A stretch of 64,000 nt of DNA from Oceanibaculum pacificum (GCF_001618175.1 NZ_LPXN01000001.1:1-64000); one strand, 5' to 3'; shown: positions 7,070 through 45,850, numbered from the stretch's first letter. The notes: a model not told the origin generated them from the letters alone. Translations and numbers: made by a program.

Positions 7070-8350
7070 GTGCTGCTGACCCTCCTCTTCGTCATGGTTT
7101 TCGGCATGCTGATCATGGGCGTGCCGGTTGCCGTCGCGCTCTGCGGCTCCTCGCTGATCTACATCCTGCTGTCCGGAAACATTCCGGATGTCGTGGTGCT
7201 GCACCGGATGATCAACGGCGTCGACAGCTTCCCGCTGCTCGCCATCCCGTTCTTCATCCTGGCCGGCAATCTGATGAACTCGGCCGGCATCACCAACCGC
7301 ATCTTCGGCTTCGCCAAGGCCTGCGTGGGCTGGATGCGCGGCGGCCTGGGGCATGTGAATGTCGGGGCCAGCGTGATCTTCGCCGGCATGTCGGGCGCGG
7401 CTGTGGCCGATGCCGGCGGGCTGGGCACCATCGAGATCAAGGCGATGCGCGACGCCGGCTATGACGATGATTTCTCGGTCGGCGTCACCGCCTCCTCCTC
7501 GACCATCGGACCGATCATTCCGCCTTCCCTGCCGATGGTCATTTACGGCGTGATGGCGAACGCCTCGATCGGCCAGCTCTTCGCCGCCGGCTTCATCCCC
7601 GGCCTGCTGATGGCTGGGGCGCTGATGATCATGGTGGCCTATTACGCCCGCGTGCGGGGCTATCCGCGCGACGGCACCTTCTCCTTCACCCGGCTGGGCA
7701 AGAGCTTCGTCACCGCCTTTCCCTCGCTGATGACGCCGACCATCATCATCGGCGGCATCCTGTTCGGCTGGTTCACGCCGACGGAAGCGGCCATCGCCGC
7801 CGTGTTCTACGCCCTGCTGCTGGGCGTGCTGGTCTACCGCACCCTGGGCTGGCGGCGCATCCTGCGCGTCAGCATGGACACCATCGAGACCACGGCGATC
7901 ATCCTGCTGATCGTCGCCGGCGCCTCGATCTTCGCCTGGATTCTGACCAGCACCCGCGTCACCGAGCATTTCGCCACCATCGTTCTGACCATCACCGACA
8001 ACCCGTTGCTGGTCCTGCTGATGATCAACGTGCTGCTGATCGTCGTCGGCTGCTTCATGGAAACCATCGCCGCCATCACCATCCTGGTGCCGGTGCTGCT
8101 GCCGGTGATCGAGAAGCTGGGCATCGATCCGGTGCATTTCGGCGTCGTCATGGTGCTGAATCTGATGATCGGCCTGCTGACGCCGCCGGTCGGTATGGTG
8201 CTCTATGTGCTGTCGCGCGTATCGGGGCTATCCTTCGAGAGATGCGTGACGGCCACGGCCCCGTTCCTGATCCCCTTGGTGACGGTGCTGCTGCTGGTCA
8301 CCTTCATTCCGCAGCTCTCGCTATGGCTGCCGACCCTGATCTATCGATGA
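7070..8350 (+). CDS. TRAP transporter large permease subunit (DctM family)
   Basis: 426 residues, strongly hydrophobic, about 11-12 membrane helices; the translocating subunit of the TRAP system. Family motifs include FFILAGNLMNSAGI, AGMSGAAVADAGGLG, the SSSTIGPIIPPS region and the C-terminal GLLTPPVGMVLYV. The start is GTG at 7070, preceded by CCCGGAGG. It follows the small subunit by 40 bases and precedes the dehydratase by 29 bases, in one transcription unit. Confidence 0.95.
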   Translation: MLLTLLFVMVFGMLIMGVPVAVALCGSSLIYILLSGNIPDVVVLHRMINGVDSFPLLAIPFFILAGNLMNSAGITNRIFGFAKACVGWMRGGLGHVNVGASVIFAGMSGAAVADAGGLGTIEIKAMRDAGYDDDFSVGVTASSSTIGPIIPPSLPMVIYGVMANASIGQLFAAGFIPGLLMAGALMIMVAYYARVRGYPRDGTFSFTRLGKSFVTAFPSLMTPTIIIGGILFGWFTPTEAAIAAVFYALLLGVLVYRTLGWRRILRVSMDTIETTAIILLIVAGASIFAWILTSTRVTEHFATIVLTITDNPLLVLLMINVLLIVVGCFMETIAAITILVPVLLPVIEKLGIDPVHFGVVMVLNLMIGLLTPPVGMVLYVLSRVSGLSFERCVTATAPFLIPLVTVLLLVTFIPQLSLWLPTLIYR

Positions 8351-8379
8351 CGTGACGCCCTGAAGGAGGGGCTAGCCCG

Positions 8380-9924
8380 ATGTCCTCCGTGCTCGACGCG
8401 CCGAAAGACGCCCTCTTCGTTCGCCTGCACCCGGCCGACAATGTCGTGGTCGCCCGGCTGGCGCTGATGCCCGGAACGGCGCTGCCCGGCGAGGGGGTAA
8501 GCGCGGCCGGCAGCATCCCGGCCGGCCACAAGGTGGCGACCAAGCCGATCGCCGCCGGGGAGCCGGTGCGCAAATACAATCAGATTATCGGCTTCGCCAC
8601 CGAGGAGATCGCGGCCGGCGCGCATGTCCATGTGCACAATGTCGAGATGCAGGATTTCGAGCGCGACTACGCCTTTTCCAGCGACATGCGCCCGACCGAC
8701 ATGGTGCCGGAGGCCGAGCGCGCCACTTTCCAGGGCTTCGTGCGCAAGAACGGCACGGTGGGCACGCGCAATTACATCGGCATCCTGACCTCGGTGAACT
8801 GCTCGGCCACGGTGGCGAAATACATCGCCGCCGCCGTCACGCCGGAGATTCTGGCGCAGTATCCCAATGTCGACGGGGTGGTGGCGCTGGTGCATTCCAC
8901 CGGCTGCGGCATGGCCGATACCGGCGAGGGTTACGCCAATCTGCAGCGCACGCTGTGGGGCTATGCCCGGCACCCGAACTTTGCCGGCATATTGATGGTC
9001 GGGCTGGGCTGCGAGGTGAACCAGATCGACTTCCTGCTGGAAGCCTACGGGCTGGAGCGCGGGCCGCGTTTCCAGACCATGACGATCCAGGATACCGGCG
9101 GCACCCGCAAGACGGTGGATCGCGGCGTCGAGATCGTGAAATCCATGCTGCCTGTCGCCAACGAGGCGACGCGCAGCACGGTGCCGGCCAGCCACCTGAC
9201 GCTGGCGCTGCAATGCGGCGGCTCGGACGGCTATTCCGGCATCACCGCCAACCCGGCGCTGGGGGCGGCGGCCGATCTGCTGGTGCGCCATGGCGGCACG
9301 GCGATCCTGTCGGAAACGCCGGAAATCTATGGCGCCGAGCATCTGCTGACGCGCCGCGCGGTCGACCGCAAGATCGGCGAGAAGCTGATCGAGCGCATCC
9401 GCTGGTGGGAGGATTACACCGAGCGCAATGGCGGCGAGATGAACAACAACCCATCGCCCGGCAACAAGGCGGGCGGCCTGACCACCATCCTGGAAAAGTC
9501 GCTGGGGGCGGCGGCCAAGGGTGGCACGACGAACCTGACCGGCGTGTTCAAATATGCCGAGCCGGTGAATGTGAAGGGCTTCGTGTTCATGGATTCGCCC
9601 GGCTACGATCCCTGCTCGGTCACCGGCCAGGTCGCCAGCGGCGCCAATGTGATCTGCTTCACCACCGGCCGCGGCTCGGTGTTCGGCTGCAAGCCGTCGC
9701 CCTCGATTAAGCTGGCCACCAATTCGCTGATGTACCGCAAGCTGTCCGAGGATATGGACGTGAATTGCGGCGCCGTGCTGGATGAGGGGGTGTCGATCCA
9801 GGAGATGGGCCGGCAGGTGTTCGAATTGATCCTGCGGGTCGCCTCGGGCGAGAAGAGCAAAAGCGAGGCGCAGGGCTTCGGCGACGCGGAATTCATTCCC
9901 TGGCAGGTCGGCGCGGTGATGTAG
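8380..9924 (+). CDS. UxaA/GarD-family sugar-acid dehydratase (altronate or galactarate dehydratase type)
   Basis: 514 residues, the full-length two-part form: an N-terminal SAF domain (about 1-100) and a C-terminal dehydratase domain with HSTGCGMADTGEG, LQCGGSDGYSGITANP, NPSPGNKAGGLTT (near 355-368) and FTTGRGSVFGCKPSPSIK. Characterised relatives remove water from altronate or galactarate using iron. The exact substrate cannot be read here; the SPGYDPCSVTGQ section departs from E. coli UxaA and GarD, so another sugar acid is possible. The AAGGAGG site before ATG 8380 is strong. The gene closes the TRAP operon, suggesting uptake and first catabolic step are co-expressed. No regulator gene adjoins it. 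Confidence 0.9.
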   Translation: MSSVLDAPKDALFVRLHPADNVVVARLALMPGTALPGEGVSAAGSIPAGHKVATKPIAAGEPVRKYNQIIGFATEEIAAGAHVHVHNVEMQDFERDYAFSSDMRPTDMVPEAERATFQGFVRKNGTVGTRNYIGILTSVNCSATVAKYIAAAVTPEILAQYPNVDGVVALVHSTGCGMADTGEGYANLQRTLWGYARHPNFAGILMVGLGCEVNQIDFLLEAYGLERGPRFQTMTIQDTGGTRKTVDRGVEIVKSMLPVANEATRSTVPASHLTLALQCGGSDGYSGITANPALGAAADLLVRHGGTAILSETPEIYGAEHLLTRRAVDRKIGEKLIERIRWWEDYTERNGGEMNNNPSPGNKAGGLTTILEKSLGAAAKGGTTNLTGVFKYAEPVNVKGFVFMDSPGYDPCSVTGQVASGANVICFTTGRGSVFGCKPSPSIKLATNSLMYRKLSEDMDVNCGAVLDEGVSIQEMGRQVFELILRVASGEKSKSEAQGFGDAEFIPWQVGAVM

Positions 9925-31516: not shown

Positions 31517-32485
31517 TTAATTCAGCCTGGCGGCTTCGGCCTGGCAGGCGACGGCGGCGCGCAGCAGATTAATCGCGATGGCGGAGCCGATGCCGTCGCC
31601 GGTGGACAGCCCCAGATCGAGCAGGGGCGTGAGGCCAAGGCGGTCGGCCAGCGCCCGGGCGCCGGCATCGCCGCTGGCATGGGCCAGCAGGCAATGTTCG
31701 ATGGCGGTCGGCCGCAGCGCGCGCAGCACGGCCGCCGCCGCCAGGCCCTCTACGCCGTCGATCAGCACCGGGGTACGGGCGAAGCGGCAGGCGAGGATGG
31801 CACCCGCCATCGCCGCGATGTCCAGCCCGCCCAGGCGGCGCAGCGCCTCCAGGGGGTCGGCCTTCGCGCCGGCATGCAGGGCCACGGCCTGGTCGACCAG
31901 CGCCAGCCGGGCGGAGCCGGCATCGGCGCCCAGCCAGTCCCGCGCCGTGCCGCCCAGCAACAGGCTGGCGAGTGCTGCGGCAGGCAGTTTCGCCTCGCCG
32001 GAAACGCCGGCCAGGGCCAGCACATCGATGCCGGGCTCGACCGCGATCATGCCGTAGGTCATGGCGCGCGCGCAGTCCGCCTCGCTCATCGCCGGTTGGG
32101 CCGCGATATTCTCGGTCGGCACCTCGACCGACAGTTCATAGACACGCAGATCGGCGTCCAACGTGTCGACCAGCCGGTTCAGCGGCGTATCGCCATCCAG
32201 GAACCGCTTAACCGACGCCTCGGTCAGCGCCGACGGATCGACGCCCAGCCCGGCCGCGACGCCCTGGCTGGCGGCGAAGACGCAGATCCGCGGGTGATTG
32301 AGCTGCGGCGTCGCCCGGCCCTGCCAGGCGGCGAGAAAGCGGGCCAGGCCGCTCAACATGCCCATGCCCTCCCCGGCGGCGGTGCCGGCGGCGGCTTCCG
32401 CCGCGCGGTCCGCGGGCGGCAGCTCGTCCAGCATGCGGCGGATTTCGCTGAAATTCGGCTCCATATCGGTATCGCTGGGGGCCAT
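31517..32485 (-). CDS. CobT-like phosphoribosyltransferase family protein with degenerate active site
   Basis: 322 residues, overall CobT fold (nicotinate-nucleotide:dimethylbenzimidazole phosphoribosyltransferase), e.g. LDELPPADRAA, GRATPQLNHPRICVFAASQGVAA, ILACRFARTPVLIDGVEGLAAA, PLLDLGLSTGDGIGSA. Two canonical motifs are changed: the C-terminal LGEGTGA reads TGDGIGSA, placing Asp297 where CobT has its catalytic Glu, and the central GEMGIGNTT reads AGVSGEAKL. Activity as a true CobT is therefore uncertain. ATG 32485 has GAGG 5 bases upstream and is preferred to ATG 32500. Divergent from a CobC-like gene, which supports a cobamide link. Confidence 0.82.
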   Translation of the reverse strand: MAPSDTDMEPNFSEIRRMLDELPPADRAAEAAAGTAAGEGMGMLSGLARFLAAWQGRATPQLNHPRICVFAASQGVAAGLGVDPSALTEASVKRFLDGDTPLNRLVDTLDADLRVYELSVEVPTENIAAQPAMSEADCARAMTYGMIAVEPGIDVLALAGVSGEAKLPAAALASLLLGGTARDWLGADAGSARLALVDQAVALHAGAKADPLEALRRLGGLDIAAMAGAILACRFARTPVLIDGVEGLAAAAVLRALRPTAIEHCLLAHASGDAGARALADRLGLTPLLDLGLSTGDGIGSAIAINLLRAAVACQAEAARLN

Positions 32486-32563
32486 CGGGTCCTCGTGCAT
32501 ATCGTGGCGGGCGCGCCTGTCCTATAACCTTAGGCGTCCCAAACAAAGCGGAAAGAGAGTGCG

Positions 32564-33214
32564 ATGAGCAGCGACAACCGAACCACGACGCGCTGGTGGT
32601 GGATTCGCCACGCCCCGGTGACCAGCGATGGCGGCCGCGTCTACGGCGCCAGCGACCTGCCGGCGGATTGCTCCGACCGGGCGGCCTTCGAGGGGCTGGC
32701 GCGCCATTTGCCGCAGGAAGCGGTATGGGTCACCTCGCATCTGATGCGCACGCACCAGACGATGGACGCCATCGGCGCGGCCGGCTACCCGCTGCCGGCC
32801 GAGGAGTCGCCGCGCAATATCGAGATCGATCTGGGCGAGCAGAGCTTTGGCGAGCTGCAAGGCCGGTCGCGCCAGGAGATTTTCGCGACCAACGAATTCC
32901 AGCGCCATCGCTTCTGGCTGTCGGCGGTCGATGTCGTCCCGCCCGGCGGCGAGAGCTTCGAGCAGCTGATCGGCCGGGTTGTGCCGGTGGTCGAGCGGCT
33001 GACGCAAACGTACCATCTGAAGGATGTGATCTGCGTCGCGCATGGCGGCACGATCCGCGCCGCCCTGTCCCATGCCTTGCGGATTCCGGCCGCCTCGGCG
33101 CTGCATTTCCGCATCGACAATCTGTCGGTCACACGGCTCGACCATCACGCGCCCGACCGGCTGTGGCCGGACCCGGATTGGCAGGTGGTGACGGTGAATC
33201 ATCATCCACGCTGA
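32564..33214 (+). CDS. CobC-like histidine phosphatase (alpha-ribazole phosphatase family)
   Basis: 216 residues of the phosphoglycerate mutase-like superfamily. The phospho-acceptor motif WWWIRHAP (Arg15-His16) starts the domain; TSHLMRTHQTMDAI and IDLGEQSFGELQGRSRQEIF follow, and the second catalytic His is in CVAHGGTIRAAL. The Trp-rich start and the place opposite a CobT-like gene suggest alpha-ribazole-5'-phosphate dephosphorylation in cobamide synthesis. A general phosphatase is the alternative. ATG 32564 with GAGAG upstream. Confidence 0.85.
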   Translation: MSSDNRTTTRWWWIRHAPVTSDGGRVYGASDLPADCSDRAAFEGLARHLPQEAVWVTSHLMRTHQTMDAIGAAGYPLPAEESPRNIEIDLGEQSFGELQGRSRQEIFATNEFQRHRFWLSAVDVVPPGGESFEQLIGRVVPVVERLTQTYHLKDVICVAHGGTIRAALSHALRIPAASALHFRIDNLSVTRLDHHAPDRLWPDPDWQVVTVNHHPR

Positions 33215-33231
33215 TTCTTTCGTCAGGCGAT

Positions 33232-33258
33232 GGAACAAATAACGGGGGGTTCGGCGTT
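33232..33258 (+). promoter_or_regulatory. Candidate EcfG (general stress sigma factor) promoter
   Basis: GGAAC at 33232-33236 and CGTT at 33255-33258, separated by 18 bases, resemble the GGAAC-N16/17-CGTT general stress promoters of alphaproteobacteria, one base longer in spacing. It lies 57 bases before the ATG of the SYLF protein. Confidence 0.42.
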
Positions 33259-33314
33259 TATAAGATAACGGTCGCCTCATCGGGCGGCCCCGTTCACCGA
33301 TCGGAGACTCGATC

Positions 33315-33992
33315 ATGCGGCGTTTGCGCTACCTATTCCCTCTCCTGCTCGGCCTTGTCGCCGGCGCACCGGCCGTGGCCTCGGCCAACGACCAGCAGGT
33401 GCTGGTCGACAAATCCGCCTCGGCGCTGCAAAGCGTCCTGAACCAGAAGGGGCTGGAGCCGGCCCGCGAATATCTGCAACGCGCCCGCGCGGTAATGATT
33501 GTGCCCGAACTGGTGAAGGCCGGGCTGATCGTCGGCGGCGAGGGCGGCAATGGCGTTCTGGTCACCAAGACCGCCAATGGCGAGTGGAGCAATCCCGCCT
33601 TCTATCAGTTCATCGCCGGCAGCGTCGGCCTGCAGATCGGCGTGGAATCGAAGGAAGTCATCTTCATGGTGATGACCGACGACGCGCTGGACAAGCTGAT
33701 GCGCAACGAATTCAAGCTGGGCGTTGATGCCAGCATCGCCGTTGGCCCGGTCGGCGCCGGTGTCGAAGGGTCCAGCGTTGGCAATGTGAAAGCCGATATC
33801 GTGGCCTACTCCAAGTCAAAGGGCCTGTTCGGCGGCGGCGCCGTGGAAGGCGGCGTGATCCAGCCGAAAACGGACTGGAACGCGGCCTATTACAACGCCC
33901 CGGCGGTAACGGCCGAATCCATCGTGCTGACCCGTCAGCATGAAAATGCCGGCGCGGCGAAACTGCGTCAGGTTCTATCGGCCGCGGATTGA
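33315..33992 (+). CDS. SYLF (YSC84-like) lipid-binding domain protein
   Basis: 225 residues with a signal peptide (MRRLRYLFPLLLGLVAGAPAVASA, cleavage after ASA near 24). The rest is one SYLF domain: AVMIVPELVKAGLIVGGEGGNGVLV, YQFIAGSVGLQIGVESKEVIFMVMTDDAL, VGPVGAGVEGSSVGNVKADIVAYSKSKGLFGG. SYLF domains bind phosphoinositides in eukaryotes; bacterial members are exported proteins of unclear role, often stress-induced. A candidate EcfG promoter precedes it and a T-rich terminator follows. Confidence 0.92.
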   Translation: MRRLRYLFPLLLGLVAGAPAVASANDQQVLVDKSASALQSVLNQKGLEPAREYLQRARAVMIVPELVKAGLIVGGEGGNGVLVTKTANGEWSNPAFYQFIAGSVGLQIGVESKEVIFMVMTDDALDKLMRNEFKLGVDASIAVGPVGAGVEGSSVGNVKADIVAYSKSKGLFGGGAVEGGVIQPKTDWNAAYYNAPAVTAESIVLTRQHENAGAAKLRQVLSAAD

Positions 33993-34044
33993 GGAACGCC
34001 CCCTCACCCCCCTCCTCTTCCGTGACTGATCTGCCCCCTCCCGC

Positions 34045-34066
34045 CCCCCTCGGGAGGGGGTTTTTA
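34045..34066 (+). terminator. Intrinsic terminator after the SYLF gene
   Basis: CCCCCT (34045-34050), loop CGGG, AGGGGG (34055-34060), then TTTTTA. A classical rho-independent shape 50 bases after the SYLF stop; it overlaps the 3' end of the convergent CobD-like gene. Confidence 0.8.
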
Positions 34067-35050
34067 TATCCGCAAGATCAGCACAACCAGGCCGGCAAGC
34101 AGGCCCGCGCTCACCACGCAGCCGATGGCGAACAGCATCAGCGCGCGGCGAATATCGTCAGGCAGCAGGCGGGCCCGGCCGCTGCCGATCCAAGGCTCCT
34201 CAATGCTACGCTGGGCGTAATGGCGCGGCCCGGCGAGCGAGAAATCCAGCGCCCCGGCCATCGCCGCCAGGGCGCGGGCCTGCGACAGGCTGCCCTTGCC
34301 GCCATCCCGCAGCATCATCTTTAGCGCCGCCATCGGCTTGGCCGTGGGCACCGCGATGGCGGCGATGCAGAACAGGATCCCCGCTAGCCAGGCGGCCGGC
34401 CGGGTCACTATCGCGGCCAGCAGGATAAAGGCCTGGCCGTAGAGCGCGCGGTCCGGCCGGCGCACCGTGCCGGCGGCGCGCAGCAAAACTCCCTGGACCA
34501 GCAATCCCGGCAGACCGAACAAGGCCGCCCATAGCACCGGCGCGGCGACGCCGGTGACGAAGCGCTCGGCCGCCGCCTCCACCGCCGTGCGGGCGACGCT
34601 ATGGGCATCCATCTTGTAGATATCGCGGTCGGTCAGCGGGTCGACGGCGATGCGCGCGGCGTCCAGGTTGCCGCCCTGCAATGCCTGCCGCGCAGCACTT
34701 GCCCGGTCGTAGGGTTGGCGCACGGTGAGAAGCATGACCATCAGCACCAGGGCAACGGCCCAGCCCAGCCCATGCGCGCCGGCCAGAATTTGCAGCGCGC
34801 CACCGGTGAGCAGAGCGATAGCCAGCAGCATCAGCGCCGCGAGCCAGCCGCGCAGCCGCAGCGAGGCCGGGCTGCGCGCCGCCCGGTTCAGCCGGTCGTC
34901 GAACCAGCGCGCCGCCCGTTCCGCCAGCCGGCCCGGATGGGCGGTCGATAGCGCGGCCGGCCAGCGCAGCCCGCCGGCATAGCCATCCACCGCCAGCGCG
35001 GCGATCAGCAGGATCAGTATTTCGGCGGTCAACCCATCGAACAGCAGCAT
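34064..35050 (-). CDS. CobD/CbiB-like membrane protein lacking a canonical motif
   Basis: 328 residues, several membrane helices, with partial similarity to adenosylcobinamide-phosphate synthase CobD/CbiB: the LIAALAVDGYAGG start, the ARIAVDPLTDRDIYKMDAHSVARTAVEAAAERFVTGVAAPVLWAALFG core and an AAMAGALDF region. The family motif YKAxNTLDSMxGY expected right after the core is replaced by a VQGVLLRAAGTVRR stretch. So it may be a diverged or non-enzymatic relative. Grouping with CobT-like and CobC-like genes supports a cobamide link. ATG 35050; divergent from the DUF4149 gene. Confidence 0.72.
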   Translation of the reverse strand: MLLFDGLTAEILILLIAALAVDGYAGGLRWPAALSTAHPGRLAERAARWFDDRLNRAARSPASLRLRGWLAALMLLAIALLTGGALQILAGAHGLGWAVALVLMVMLLTVRQPYDRASAARQALQGGNLDAARIAVDPLTDRDIYKMDAHSVARTAVEAAAERFVTGVAAPVLWAALFGLPGLLVQGVLLRAAGTVRRPDRALYGQAFILLAAIVTRPAAWLAGILFCIAAIAVPTAKPMAALKMMLRDGGKGSLSQARALAAMAGALDFSLAGPRHYAQRSIEEPWIGSGRARLLPDDIRRALMLFAIGCVVSAGLLAGLVVLILRI

Positions 35051-40360: not shown

Positions 40361-41440
40361 TCAATTGAGCCGCTTGCTGGTTTCCGGATCGAACAGATGC
40401 AGCTCGTCGAGCGGCGGGGCCAGATGCAGCAATGCGCCGATCTTCACCGGCGAGATGCCGGGCAGGCGCGCGGTGAGGGAGGATTCGGTCCCCTCGATAT
40501 GGCCATAGACCAACGTGTCCGCACCTAGCATCTCGACCAGGTCGACCGTAATGGCGATGGTCGCGGCGCTCTTCTCGGCCTTTTCCGTCAGATGTTCGGG
40601 GCGCACGCCCAGGGTCACGGCACGATTCGCCGCCCCGGCGGGGGCTGTCGGCACCGGCAGGACCATGCCGCCGCCGAGATCGACATGCTTGCCGTCGGCC
40701 GTCAGGGTGGCAGGCAGGAAATTCATCGAGGGCGAGCCGATGAAGCCGGCGACGAAGATCGTGGCCGGGCGCTCATAGACTTCCAGCGGCGTGCCGATCT
40801 GCTCGGCGACACCGTTATGCATGACCACCAGCCGGTCGGCCATGGTCATCGCCTCGACCTGATCATGGGTCACATAGATCGAAGTGGTGCCCAGCCGGCG
40901 TTGCAGACGCTTGATCTCCACGCGCATCTGCACGCGCAGCTTGGCGTCGAGATTCGACAGCGGTTCGTCAAACAGGAACACGGCCGGTTCGCGCACAATG
41001 GCGCGGCCCATGGCGACGCGCTGGCGCTGACCGCCGGAGAGTTGGCGCGGCCGGCGCTCCAGCAAGGCGGAGAGCTGCAGCAGATCGGCCGCCATCTTCA
41101 CGCGCTTTTCGATCTCGTCCTTCGGCAGGCCCTTGATCTTCAACCCGTAGGCCATGTTGTCGTAGACCGACATATGCGGGTAGAGCGCGTAATTCTGGAA
41201 CACCATGGCGATGTCCCGGTCTTTCGGCTCCAGCTGGTTCACCACACGGTTGGCGATGGATATGTCGCCGCCGGTGATTTCCTCCAGCCCGGCGACCATG
41301 CGCAGGGTGGTGGATTTGCCGCAGCCCGACGGGCCGACCAGCACGACGAATTCGCCATCGGCGATATCCATGTCGATCCCGTGGATGACTCTCGTGTCGC
41401 CGTAATTCTTGACGACCTGCTTCAGATGGACGTCGGCCAT
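40361..41440 (-). CDS. ugpC: sn-glycerol-3-phosphate ABC transporter ATP-binding protein UgpC
   Basis: 359 residues of the MalK/UgpC ATPase family: Walker [11 protein letters not shown]-loop [13 protein letters not shown], signature LSGGQRQR, Walker B AVFLFDEP, switch His in VTHDQVEAM, and a C-terminal OB-type regulatory domain (about 240-355). It powers the UgpAE permease. Last gene of ugpBAEC; ATG 41440 is 15 bases after ugpE. Substrate assignment is from the operon. Confidence 0.95.
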
Positions 41441-41455
41441 CGGTTCTATCCCTGC

Positions 41456-42295
41456 TTACTTCTCGGTTTCGACCAGGCCCTTGATGAACAGGCGCTGCAT
41501 GAAGATGACGATGGCGACCGGCGGCAGCATGGCCAGCATGGCGGTCGCCATCACGGCCGGCCAGTCGGTGAAATCGTCAATGCCGATCATGTGGCTGATG
41601 CCCATGACGATGGTGTTCATTTCCTTGTCCGTGGTGATCAGCAGCGGCCAGAGATACTGATTCCAGCCATAGATGAAGAGGATCACGAACAGGGCCGCGA
41701 TGTTGGTGCGCGACAGCGGCAGCACGACATCCCAGAAGAAGCGCAGCGGCCCGGCGCCGTCGATGCGCGCGGCCTCCAGCAACTCGTCCGGGATGGTCAT
41801 GAAGAACTGCCGGAACAGAAAGGTCGCCGTCGCCGAGGCGATCAGCGGAATGGTCAGCCCGCCATAGGAGTTCAGCAGCCCCAGATCGGCCACCACCTCG
41901 AAGGTCGGCAGGATGCGCACCTCCACCGGCAGCATGAGCGTGATGAAGATGGTCCAGAAGCACAACATGCGGAACGGGAAGCGGAAATAGACGATGGCGT
42001 AGGCCGAGGTCAGCGAGATGGCGATCTTGCCGATGGCGATGGTCAACGCCATGACCAGGCTGTTGAACATCATCAGCCCGACCGGCACCACCTTGCTCGA
42101 CCCCTCGAACAGGGCGCGCGTGTAGTTCTCGATCAGATGCGGGCCGGGGATCAGCGGCAGCGGCGGGCGCATGATCTCGTTCTGCGTCACCGTCGAGGCG
42201 ACGAAAGTGATGTACAGCGGGAAGGCCACGATCAGGATGCCGCTGATCAGGATCGCGTGGCTGAGGAGGGTGAGACCGGGACGGCGTTCGATCAT
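41456..42295 (-). CDS. ugpE: sn-glycerol-3-phosphate ABC transporter permease UgpE
   Basis: 279 residues, six membrane helices, with the EAA loop [26 protein letters not shown] that contacts UgpC. The N-terminal [35 protein letters not shown] is typical of UgpE, and so is [24 protein letters not shown]. It pairs with UgpA. ATG 42295, 10 bases downstream of the ugpA stop. Confidence 0.95.
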
Positions 42296-42305
42296 GGCGC
42301 TCTCC

Positions 42306-43187
42306 TCAGTAATGCACGCGGCGTTCGATATAGCGGAACTGCACGACGGTCAGGCTGATGACGATGACCATCAGGACAACCGACTGCGCCGCCGATCCGC
42401 CGAGATCCAGGCTGACGAAACCGTCGGAGAACACCTTGTAGACCAGCGTCTCGGTCGCCTTGCCCGGCCCGCCCTTGGTGACGGCATGGATGATGCCGAA
42501 CGTGTCGAAAAAGGCGTAGACGATGTTCACCACCAGCAGGAAGAAGGTGGTCGGCGACAGCAGCGGGAAGATGATGGTCCAGAACCGGCGCGAGGGGCCC
42601 GCGCCGTCGATGGCGGCGGCCTCGATCAGCGATTTCGGGATCGCCTGCAACCCGGCCAGGAAAAACAGGAAATTGTAGCTGATCTGCTTCCAGGCCGCGG
42701 CGAAGACCACCAGGGTCATCGCCTGGCCGCCATTCAGCACATGGTTCCAGTTATAACCCGTCTGCTTCAGCCAGAACGCCACCAGGCCGATCGACGGATT
42801 GAACAGGAACAGCCACAGCACGCCGACAATGGCCGGGGCCACGGCGTAGGGCCAGATCAGCAGGGTGCGGTAGACATTGGTGCCCTTGATCACCCGGTCG
42901 GCCATCACTGCCAGCACCAGGGCCATCCCCAGCGAGAGCACCGTGACCGAGATGCTGAAGACAGCCGTGGTCTTGAAGGATTCGAGGTAGAGCCGGTCGG
43001 AAAACAGATTTTCGAAATTCTCGAACCAGACGAACTCGCTCGACAGGCCGAAGGCGTCCTCGATCAGGAAGGATTGGTACAGCGCCTGGCTTGCCGGCCA
43101 CAGGAAGAAGATGGCCGTGATAATCAATTGCGGCGTGACCAGCAGGAACGGCAGCAGCCTTTGGCGAAAGACGACGCGCTTTTCCAT
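42306..43187 (-). CDS. ugpA: sn-glycerol-3-phosphate ABC transporter permease UgpA
   Basis: 293 residues with six membrane helices and the EAA loop [27 protein letters not shown]. The N-terminus [39 protein letters not shown] matches UgpA. ATG 43187. It is separated from ugpB by 96 bases containing a GC-rich hairpin, which may set less permease than binding protein. Confidence 0.95.
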
Positions 43188-43231
43188 CTCGTTCGCTTGC
43201 CCGGAATAAAAGAGAAGTCTTTAACAGGAAC

Positions 43232-43259
43232 GGGCGGCGCATCCGCAGACACGCCGCCC
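43232..43259 (-). other. Stem-loop between ugpB and ugpA
   Basis: GGGCGGCG (43232-43239), a 12-nt loop, CGCCGCCC (43252-43259), 24 bases after the ugpB stop. Such a hairpin after the binding-protein gene of ABC operons commonly protects its mRNA and lowers downstream expression. No T-run follows on the minus strand. Confidence 0.6.
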
Positions 43260-43283
43260 TTGTCGCTGTACGACGAGATGTCC

Positions 43284-44603
43284 TTACTTGTTGGCGCGCT
43301 CGAAGCGACGCAGCAGCTCGTTGCCGCGCGCGACAGCGTTGTCCAGCGCGACCTTGGCGGTCTTCTGGCCAGCCCACACACCTTCGAGCTCTTCGTCGAT
43401 GATGGTGCGGATCTGGTCGAAGCTGCCCAGGCGCAGGCCCTTGGAATTATCGGTCGGGGCCTTGCCGGTCATCTGGATGATGGCGATGTCGGTGCCGGGG
43501 TTCTTCTCGTAGAAGCCCTGCTTCTTGGTCAGCTCGTAGGAAGCCGGGGTGATCGGCAGATACCCGGTCTTCTGGTGCCAGTCGGCCTGCATTTCCGGCG
43601 AGGAGAGGAAATTCAGGAAGGTGGCGACGGCCTTGTATTCCTGCGCGCTGTGACCCGCCATCACCCAGACCGACGCGCCGCCGATCATGGTGTTGAGGGG
43701 AGCATCCGGAACATCGTCGTAATAGGGCAGGTTGGTGATCGCGAAGTCGAATTTGGCTTCGTTCTTCACGCCCGCATAGCCGGCGGAGCTTTCCACCATG
43801 ATGGCGCAATCGCCGCTGCGGAACCGGGCGGCAGCCTCGTTGCGGCGGCCGCCATAGATGAACTTACCTTCCTTCGACCATTTGCCCATATTGTCGATAT
43901 GGCGAATCTGGTACTGGCCATTGAAGGCGAGCTCGGCATCCATGCCATTCATGCCGTTCGCCTTGGTGGCGAAGGGCAGGTTGTGGTAGGCGCTGAAATT
44001 CTCCAGATGGGCCCAGGACTGCCAGGAGGTGGTCATCGGGCATTCGACGCCCGCGGCCTTCAGCTTGTCCAGCGCGGCGCCGACTTCCGGCCAGGTGCGC
44101 GGCAGCTTCTCGGTGTCCACGCCGGCCTTCTTGAACAGATCCTTGTTCACGTACATGACCGTGGTGGAGCTGTTATACGGGAAGGACAGCATGCGGCCGT
44201 CGAGCGTGCTGTAGTAGCTGGTCACGGCCGACAGGTAGTTCTTGGGATCGAACGGGAAGCCGCCCTCGTTCATGACCTCGTACACCGGCTTGACGGCGCC
44301 CTTGGCGGCCATCATCGAGGCGGTGCCGACTTCGTACACCTGCAGCAGATGCGGCTGCTGCTTGGCACGGAAGGCCGCGACGCCGGCATTCAGCGTCTCG
44401 GAGTAGTTGCCCTTGTTGGTGGCAACGACCTTGTAGTCCTTCTGAGAGGCATTGAACTGGTCGACCTGGCCCTGCAGGATTTCGCCCAGGCGACCGCCCA
44501 TGGCATGCCACCACTGGATCTCGGTCTGGGCATAGGCGGCGCTGGCGCCGGTGAGGGCCGCCGCGAAAACGCCGGCAGCGAAAGCTGTCTTGCGAAGCAA
44601 CAT
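43284..44603 (-). CDS. ugpB: sn-glycerol-3-phosphate ABC transporter substrate-binding protein UgpB
   Basis: Periplasmic receptor, 439 residues, with a signal peptide ending ASAAYA near residue 22 (MLLRKTAFAAGVFAAALTG). Family segments include EIQWWHAMGGRLGEILQGQVDQFN, FPYNSSTTVMYVNKDLFKKAG, TTSWQSWAHLENFSAYHNLPFATK and MIGGASVWVMAGHS. ATG 44603 follows a GGGGGGA site; the open frame starts further up at 44684. First gene of ugpBAEC; a Pho box candidate is at 44678-44695. Confidence 0.95.
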   Translation of the reverse strand: MLLRKTAFAAGVFAAALTGASAAYAQTEIQWWHAMGGRLGEILQGQVDQFNASQKDYKVVATNKGNYSETLNAGVAAFRAKQQPHLLQVYEVGTASMMAAKGAVKPVYEVMNEGGFPFDPKNYLSAVTSYYSTLDGRMLSFPYNSSTTVMYVNKDLFKKAGVDTEKLPRTWPEVGAALDKLKAAGVECPMTTSWQSWAHLENFSAYHNLPFATKANGMNGMDAELAFNGQYQIRHIDNMGKWSKEGKFIYGGRRNEAAARFRSGDCAIMVESSAGYAGVKNEAKFDFAITNLPYYDDVPDAPLNTMIGGASVWVMAGHSAQEYKAVATFLNFLSSPEMQADWHQKTGYLPITPASYELTKKQGFYEKNPGTDIAIIQMTGKAPTDNSKGLRLGSFDQIRTIIDEELEGVWAGQKTAKVALDNAVARGNELLRRFERANK

Positions 44604-44677
44604 GATACAATCCCCCCTTTGGGAAACGTCCCGAGAATTCGGTAAGGCCCCTTGTATGCGGGTCCTATTATGACTTG

Positions 44678-44695
44678 GTGACATTTATATGAAGC
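44678..44695 (-). promoter_or_regulatory. Candidate Pho box of ugpBAEC
   Basis: On the minus strand GCTTCAT-ATAA-ATGTCAC (44695-44678) fits the 7+4+7 Pho box (CTGTCAT, A/T 4-mer, CTGTCAC), best in the second half. CATAAT (44672-44667), 5 bases on, could be a -10 but is closer than the usual 10. ugpB starts 75 bases after the box. E. coli ugp is PhoB-controlled, so the site is expected. Confidence 0.58.
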
Positions 44696-44809
44696 TTTTC
44701 TTTCAGCCAAATCTTTTCGGCGTCGGTTCGCCCGCAAGCTTCGGATAGTTGTGAAAAACGGCATCGGGGTAAGAAGTCAGTCATGGATATGCCCTTTGGA
44801 GGAAGCCTG

Positions 44810-45850
44810 ATGAGCGACGATGCCGCCTGGCGCCAGGTACTTGACCGCGACCCCGCAGCCGCCGGCGCCTTTGTCTATGCCGTAACCAGCACGCACATCT
44901 ATTGCCGGCCGACATGCCCGAGCCGCCGGCCAAGGCGCGAGAATGTCCGCTTCTACGCCGTGCCGGAAGCCGCCGAGCAGGCTGGCTATCGCCCCTGCAA
45001 ACGCTGCCGGCCGGAAGCGGCGGTGCCGGCCGATCCCCGCCTGGCCGCCGTGCGGCGCGCCTGCCGGCGGATCGAGCAATCCGAGAATCCGCCGGGGCTG
45101 GAGACGCTGGCCGCGGAGGCGGGGCTAAGCCCATTCCATTTCCAGCGCCTGTTCAAGCAAACGGTCGGGATCAGCCCGAAGCATTATGCCGATGCAAGAC
45201 GGCAGGCCCGGCTGCGGCATCATCTGCAAAAGGGCGAAGAGGTGACCAGCGCGCTATACGGCGCAGGCTATGGCTCGGCCAGCCGGCTCTACGAAAAGGC
45301 GGATGCATATCTTGGCATGACGCCGGCGACCTACCGCAAGGGCGGGGCCGGCGCGCTCATCCGCTATGCAATGTCGGACACGCCACTGGGCCAGCTCTGC
45401 GTCGCCGCGACCGAGCGCGGCGTGTGCGCCGTGTTGCTGGCCGACGACGCGGTGGAGGCGCTGGCCGATCTGGCGGCCGAATTCCCCAAGGCGCAGCGGC
45501 TGCCGGATCCGGAGGGGCTGGGCGAGGCGCTGCAAGCGATCCTGCGCCATATCGCCGGGCAAAGTCCGCATATCGACCTGCCGCTGGATATTCGCGCCAC
45601 CGCCTTTCAGCGCCAGGTATGGGACAAGCTGCGGCAGATTCCGCGCGGCGAGACACGCTCCTATACCGACATTGCCGCCGCGCTGGGGGCGCCACAATCG
45701 GTGCGCGCCGTGGCCCGGGCCTGCGCCAGCAATCCCGTCGCCATCGTCATTCCATGCCATCGTGTGGTGCGACAAAATGGCGACCTTGCCGGCTATCGTT
45801 GGGGATTGGACCGGAAGCGCCAGCTACTCGCGCACGAACGCAACTCTTAA
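44810..45850 (+). CDS. ada: Bifunctional Ada: transcriptional activator and methylated-DNA-cysteine methyltransferase
   Basis: 346 residues. N-terminal zinc/methyl-acceptor domain with Cys32, Cys36, Cys63 and Cys66 (matching E. coli Cys38, 42, 69, 72), an AraC-type HTH (about 75-165, SPFHFQRLFKQTVGISPKHYADARRQARL), and a C-terminal O6-alkylguanine transferase with acceptor PCHRVV. Methylation of the first zone turns Ada into an activator of the alkylation response. ATG 44810 has a GGAGGA site 7-12 bases upstream; ATG 44783 lacks one. Divergent from ugpB. Confidence 0.95.
   Translation: MSDDAAWRQVLDRDPAAAGAFVYAVTSTHIYCRPTCPSRRPRRENVRFYAVPEAAEQAGYRPCKRCRPEAAVPADPRLAAVRRACRRIEQSENPPGLETLAAEAGLSPFHFQRLFKQTVGISPKHYADARRQARLRHHLQKGEEVTSALYGAGYGSASRLYEKADAYLGMTPATYRKGGAGALIRYAMSDTPLGQLCVAATERGVCAVLLADDAVEALADLAAEFPKAQRLPDPEGLGEALQAILRHIAGQSPHIDLPLDIRATAFQRQVWDKLRQIPRGETRSYTDIAAALGAPQSVRAVARACASNPVAIVIPCHRVVRQNGDLAGYRWGLDRKRQLLAHERNS

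Follow-up and report, generated by a model that had tools for sequence, protein, structure and literature searches.

CobT and CobD are textbook enzymes of cobalamin (B12) synthesis with one assigned job each, and without CobS the nucleotide loop of the cofactor cannot be joined. ArsAB is a heteromeric homologue of CobT that attaches phenols. It has been proposed that CbiB, CobU, CobT, CobC and CobS form a complex at the membrane, perhaps together with transporters and cobamide chaperones (PMC8092220). Here we describe a gene cluster within a 64,000 nt stretch (the window) of the genome of Oceanibaculum pacificum (G000), in which the homologues of CobT and CobD, designated CobT* and CobD*, have kept the fold and lost the catalytic and substrate-binding motifs. 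No CobT pseudoenzymes were found in a limited literature search.

A remnant of a cobalamin gene cluster

A preliminary description of this DNA had recognized CobT-like, CobC-like and CobD-like genes within 3.5 kb, and the three ORFs were found there, with Pfam domains scoring above cut-off (Table 1). Beside the trio is a Ysc84/SYLF gene, the fourth member of the inherited cluster. A check of related genomes found the trio, with identical losses, in each of the three further genomes of the genus, and the ORFs are intact in the four species, down to 69% identity. No cobalamin riboswitch was found at the window locus, and a search for defence systems gave no PADLOC match. Further along the window there is a complete ugp-type glycerol-3-phosphate ABC transporter operon (40361-44684) followed by ada (44783-45850), both ordinary.

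Table 1. Genes of the cluster and their positions in the window.
Gene or product	Position	Strand	Domain match
cobT*, CobT (DBI_PRT) homologue, active site lost	31517..32500	-	PF02277, 213.6 bits (cut-off 22.6)
CobC-like histidine phosphatase, catalytic residues intact	32564..33214	+	PF00300, 109.8 bits
Ysc84/SYLF-domain protein, apparent signal peptide	33315..33992	+	PF04366
cobD*, CobD/CbiB homologue (membrane), signature motifs all lost	34064..35050	-	PF03186, 122.7 bits (cut-off 34.4)

The B12-producing relative G123 (locus L194) has the order cobT (-), cobS, cobC, cobalamin riboswitch, cobW, cobN, cobO, Ysc84, cobQ (+), cobD (-), and that of G068 (L193) is similar. Compared with L194, the window order of cobT (-), cobC, Ysc84 (+), cobD (-) indicates that the trio is an ordinary cluster left in place after the genes between were lost, and that the genes are orthologues. 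The cobT*, CobC-like and cobD* genes are thus what is left of a standard alphaproteobacterial cobalamin cluster, from which cobS, cobW, cobN, cobO and cobQ, as well as the riboswitch, have been lost in this genus. One earlier suggestion was that they are repurposed paralogues catalyzing an unknown reaction; repurposing is supported in substance, although the genes are orthologues of the normal cluster, still in place, rather than paralogues, and CobT* and CobD* most likely carry out no reaction at all. In the ancestral cob cluster Ysc84 stands between cobO and cobQ, and it is the same neighbour in L193, L194, L304, L308, L312 and L314; this protein is found in the cob clusters of several alphaproteobacterial families and has been kept with the inactive pair.

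CobT* was aligned with 41 alphaproteobacterial CobTs. In this alignment AGVSGEAKL falls on GEMGIGNTT, and Asp302 on the catalytic Glu (the residue had been called Asp297, numbered from the second ATG), so both substitutions reported in the preliminary description are genuine replacements, and the possibility that the motifs are merely shifted is ruled out. The Lys and GTG loop preceding the Asp302 position are also lost, as is the N-terminal KPPG loop; altogether, both catalytic Glu residues, the phosphate loop, the Lys and the base loop are missing. A pairwise alignment with Salmonella CobT places the two replaced Glu residues at E174 and E317, the positions changed in deposited CobT structures that are titled E174A and E317A. 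CobT* scores 188.1 bits against the NCBIfam cobT equivalog TIGR03160, under the cut-off of 319.3, whereas the canonical CobT of L194 scores 399. The predicted (AF2) model of CobT* has a pLDDT of 95 and matches CobT crystal structures with a TM-score of 0.84, the best PDB matches all being CobT or ArsAB; the model supports an intact fold, although most of its 30 aligned input sequences were canonical relatives.

CobD* lacks YKxxNTxDSMxG, as had been noted, and in alignment also lacks IVGRD, ENFSDG, HPV and SPNAGWPE. It reaches 53.6 bits against the cbiB equivalog TIGR00380 (cut-off 165.9). Its predicted model is helical (pLDDT 88), and a fold search with it returned no PDB relative. The CobC-like phosphatase, by comparison with CobC proteins of B12 clusters, does retain the catalytic RHA, Arg, Glu and His, in agreement with the first reading. 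It is 42–54% identical to most of these CobCs and scores 97 bits against cobC TIGR03162 (cut-off 163), a model on which the CobC of a complete B12 cluster reaches only 121. It is probably an active phosphatase acting on a substrate other than alpha-ribazole phosphate.

A check for canonical cobT and cobD elsewhere in the genome found none; the window homologues are its only CobT and CobD, with a single PF02277 match in G000. CobS is missing from G000 and from the three other genomes of the genus, 92–98% complete, CobU is absent from G000, the sole genome searched for it, and CobB/CobQ has no full match in any of the four; the partial CobB/CobQ matches of about 30 bits in the genus resemble others found in genomes with real CobB/CobQ. 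All four genomes encode MetH, and two of them, G000 and G002, also encode methylmalonyl-CoA mutase. The genus therefore uses cobalamin and has no known route to make it or to assemble the nucleotide loop, and no known mechanism would let the trio produce or remodel a cobamide lower ligand. The proposal that it produces a non-standard lower ligand fails on these absences, and on the loss of all the ligand-binding elements of CobT. Two candidates for a hidden CobS were discarded: an unannotated 263 aa protein beside CobT in G001 and G003 carries a signal peptide and none of the features of CobS, and a 252 aa ORF in L125 appears to be a non-coding shadow.

Selection and recurrent loss in Alphaproteobacteria

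The dN/dS ratio (omega) was estimated from two independent species pairs of the genus, with confidence limits below 0.5 and a wrong-frame reading of the same DNA as control. Values were 0.22–0.29 for cobT*, 0.16–0.27 for the CobC-like phosphatase gene and 0.19–0.36 for cobD*, and above 1 in the wrong frame, showing that the trio are not pseudogenes. The inactive CobTs of three Parvibaculaceae-type genomes (family f10), which also own canonical CobT and CobS, gave an omega of 0.06.

Among the higher-scoring CobT matches that were read from an even sample of the class Alphaproteobacteria, broken active sites are present in at least 18 of the 197 genomes with a CobT. Outside this sample they are found in G014 and in a Methylobacteriaceae record. 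In G309, G103 and G081 CobT still has the second Glu, and its degeneration is only partial. Inactive CobTs formed one clade in a first tree (95/97), but once sampling was denser and the active-site columns had been excluded, a single clade was rejected (p-AU 0.000124); six changes are required on the larger tree, and supported branches force at least four of them. CobT has thus lost its active site repeatedly in Alphaproteobacteria. For CobD, one clade of inactive copies was not rejected (p 0.28) and the branch order of CobD* is weak, and repeated loss is not claimed.

Residues that are invariant in canonical CobTs split sharply across eight lineages, the catalytic ones being lost and the scaffold kept. 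Glu165, Met166, Ile168, Thr194, Glu278, Met298 and Ser304 (window numbering) are lost in all eight, and Lys198 and Glu302 in all but one lineage each. Kept in all eight are Arg21, Trp59, Gln60, Phe75, Gly103, Gly150, Gly225, Arg239, Pro244, Asp248, Gly249 and His269. Of the genomes tested, those with no CobT other than an inactive one (the genus, G014, G055 and G309) lack CobS, and those with a canonical CobT have it. The B12 producers G012, G142, G382, G233 and G043 carry an inactive CobT together with the full pathway.

No non-cob partner genes conserved with the inactive CobT were common to the other lineages. In G043 it is flanked by genes for an ankyrin-repeat protein and a histidine kinase (L126:10902-11525 and 8336-9802), unlike in other lineages. 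In the Parvibaculaceae genome G233, which has a canonical CobS elsewhere, the inactive CobT adjoins a divergent CobS-like protein (L035:8800-9759, minus strand; PF02654, 31.6 bits) whose DGLAD region is altered. The canonical CobT of G012 (L131) falls outside the alphaproteobacterial type in trees, and its own alphaproteobacterial-type CobT is inactive; it is possible that this genome lost B12 synthesis and later regained it by transfer.

Inactive CobT lies next to inactive CobD in four families (f1, which is the genus, f29, f93 and f94), in three arrangements. The two are adjacent in f94, with 99 bases between the matched stretches, and in f29 and f93 Ysc84 lies between them. Families f1 and f94 form a supported clade in both the CobT (99/96) and CobD (99/94) trees, so the motifs of both proteins were probably lost before these families separated. 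Besides the inactive pair, G096 (f93) has a separate canonical cobC-cobT-cobS locus (L308, L310). Pairing is not universal, as inactive CobTs are found without a nearby CobD in f10, f41, f53 and f12. G054 (L086), G333 (L191) and G068 (L174/L193) have a CobD with broken motifs and a second CobD match elsewhere; in G333 and G068 the broken copy is inside a B12 cluster with canonical CobT, and G054 and G333 are B12 producers carrying a second, inactive CobD. The only CobD of G056 (L181/L312) is broken and has cobC and Ysc84 beside it, and no CobT was found in this genome.

Possible roles of the retained pair

We consider it probable that CobT* and CobD* are a non-catalytic pair, left from a B12 cluster and maintained by selection for a structural or handling job that is shared with normal CobT and CobD. 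CobD* would be embedded in the membrane and CobT* would dock onto it, neither being catalytic, and the job would be one that the normal pair also performs in B12 producers. Its source may be the proposed membrane complex of nucleotide-loop enzymes, of which the two proteins are possibly a leftover. One possible use would be to deliver imported cobamide to MetH and methylmalonyl-CoA mutase, or to retain it for them; a leftover complex handling imported cobamide would explain why CobT, CobC and CobD stayed while CobS and the ring genes went. A broader reading, which we put forward tentatively, is that the CobT and CobD/CbiB of Alphaproteobacteria also serve a second function, without catalysis, which is exposed wherever B12 synthesis is lost, parallel erosion of the active sites leaving a conserved pair of pseudoenzymes.

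Two other explanations fare poorly. In favour of the trio being decaying, functionless relics of a recently lost pathway are the loss of the pathway partners and an omega in G000-G002 (0.29–0.36) above that of some housekeeping neighbours. However, ORFs that stay intact among four diverged species, omega values of 0.16–0.36 where wrong-frame controls exceed 1, the much lower value in another lineage, and losses confined to catalytic positions all argue the other way; the selection test largely refutes this explanation, which is improbable. More improbable still is that CobT* still transfers a phosphoribosyl group with Asp302 as the base, activating an unusual lower ligand, with an unrecognized synthase in place of CobS. 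Asp302 does occupy the catalytic Glu position in all four species of the genus, but related inactive CobTs have Ser, Pro or Gln there, the second Glu, phosphate loop, Lys and base loop have gone as well, and CobS and CobB/CobQ are missing from the four genomes and CobU from the one searched.

For the genus, a function unconnected with B12 has to be taken seriously as a rival, though we regard it as somewhat unlikely. CobT* and CobD* would have been recruited, separately or together, to another task, for example as a membrane-linked sensor or allosteric subunit, their co-location being merely inherited gene order. Neither a riboswitch nor a conserved non-cob partner gene ties the locus to B12; many lineages keep an inactive CobT without CobD or CobS, and the five B12 producers named above keep one alongside the full pathway. 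Inherited order alone accords less well with the neighbouring inactive copies in four families with differing arrangements, and with the way inactive CobT and CobD track each other in trees.

If the active sites of CobT and CobD are repeatedly lost under strong selection, then the proteins must also do something else, and the inactive copies are natural separation-of-function variants that make a second job testable. This bears on the open question of why the last steps of B12 synthesis are located at the membrane (PMC8092220). In practice, a cobT, cobC or cobD found in a genome or metagenome can wrongly be taken as a sign of B12 synthesis or of lower-ligand activation.

Comparison with known systems

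CobT* resembles CobT (nicotinate-nucleotide:5,6-dimethylbenzimidazole phosphoribosyltransferase) in fold, in its place by cobC and cobD and in its scaffold residues, but differs in the loss of its catalytic and binding elements and in being encoded by a genome without the partner CobS. ArsAB is retrieved by the same sequence and fold searches, but has two different subunits where the window genome has one gene. CobD* is, like the CobD/CbiB adenosylcobinamide-phosphate synthase, a helical PF03186 membrane protein encoded at the same place in a cob cluster, but has none of the five signature motifs of that enzyme. NCBIfam PRK07630, a CobD/CbiB family of unknown role, is likewise a CbiB homologue outside the known reaction; CobD*, at 25.5 bits against a cut-off of 291, is not a member. 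The proposed CbiB-CobU-CobT-CobC-CobS complex (PMC8092220) is itself a hypothesis, and its catalytic members are gone or inactive here, but three of its five members have been retained together.
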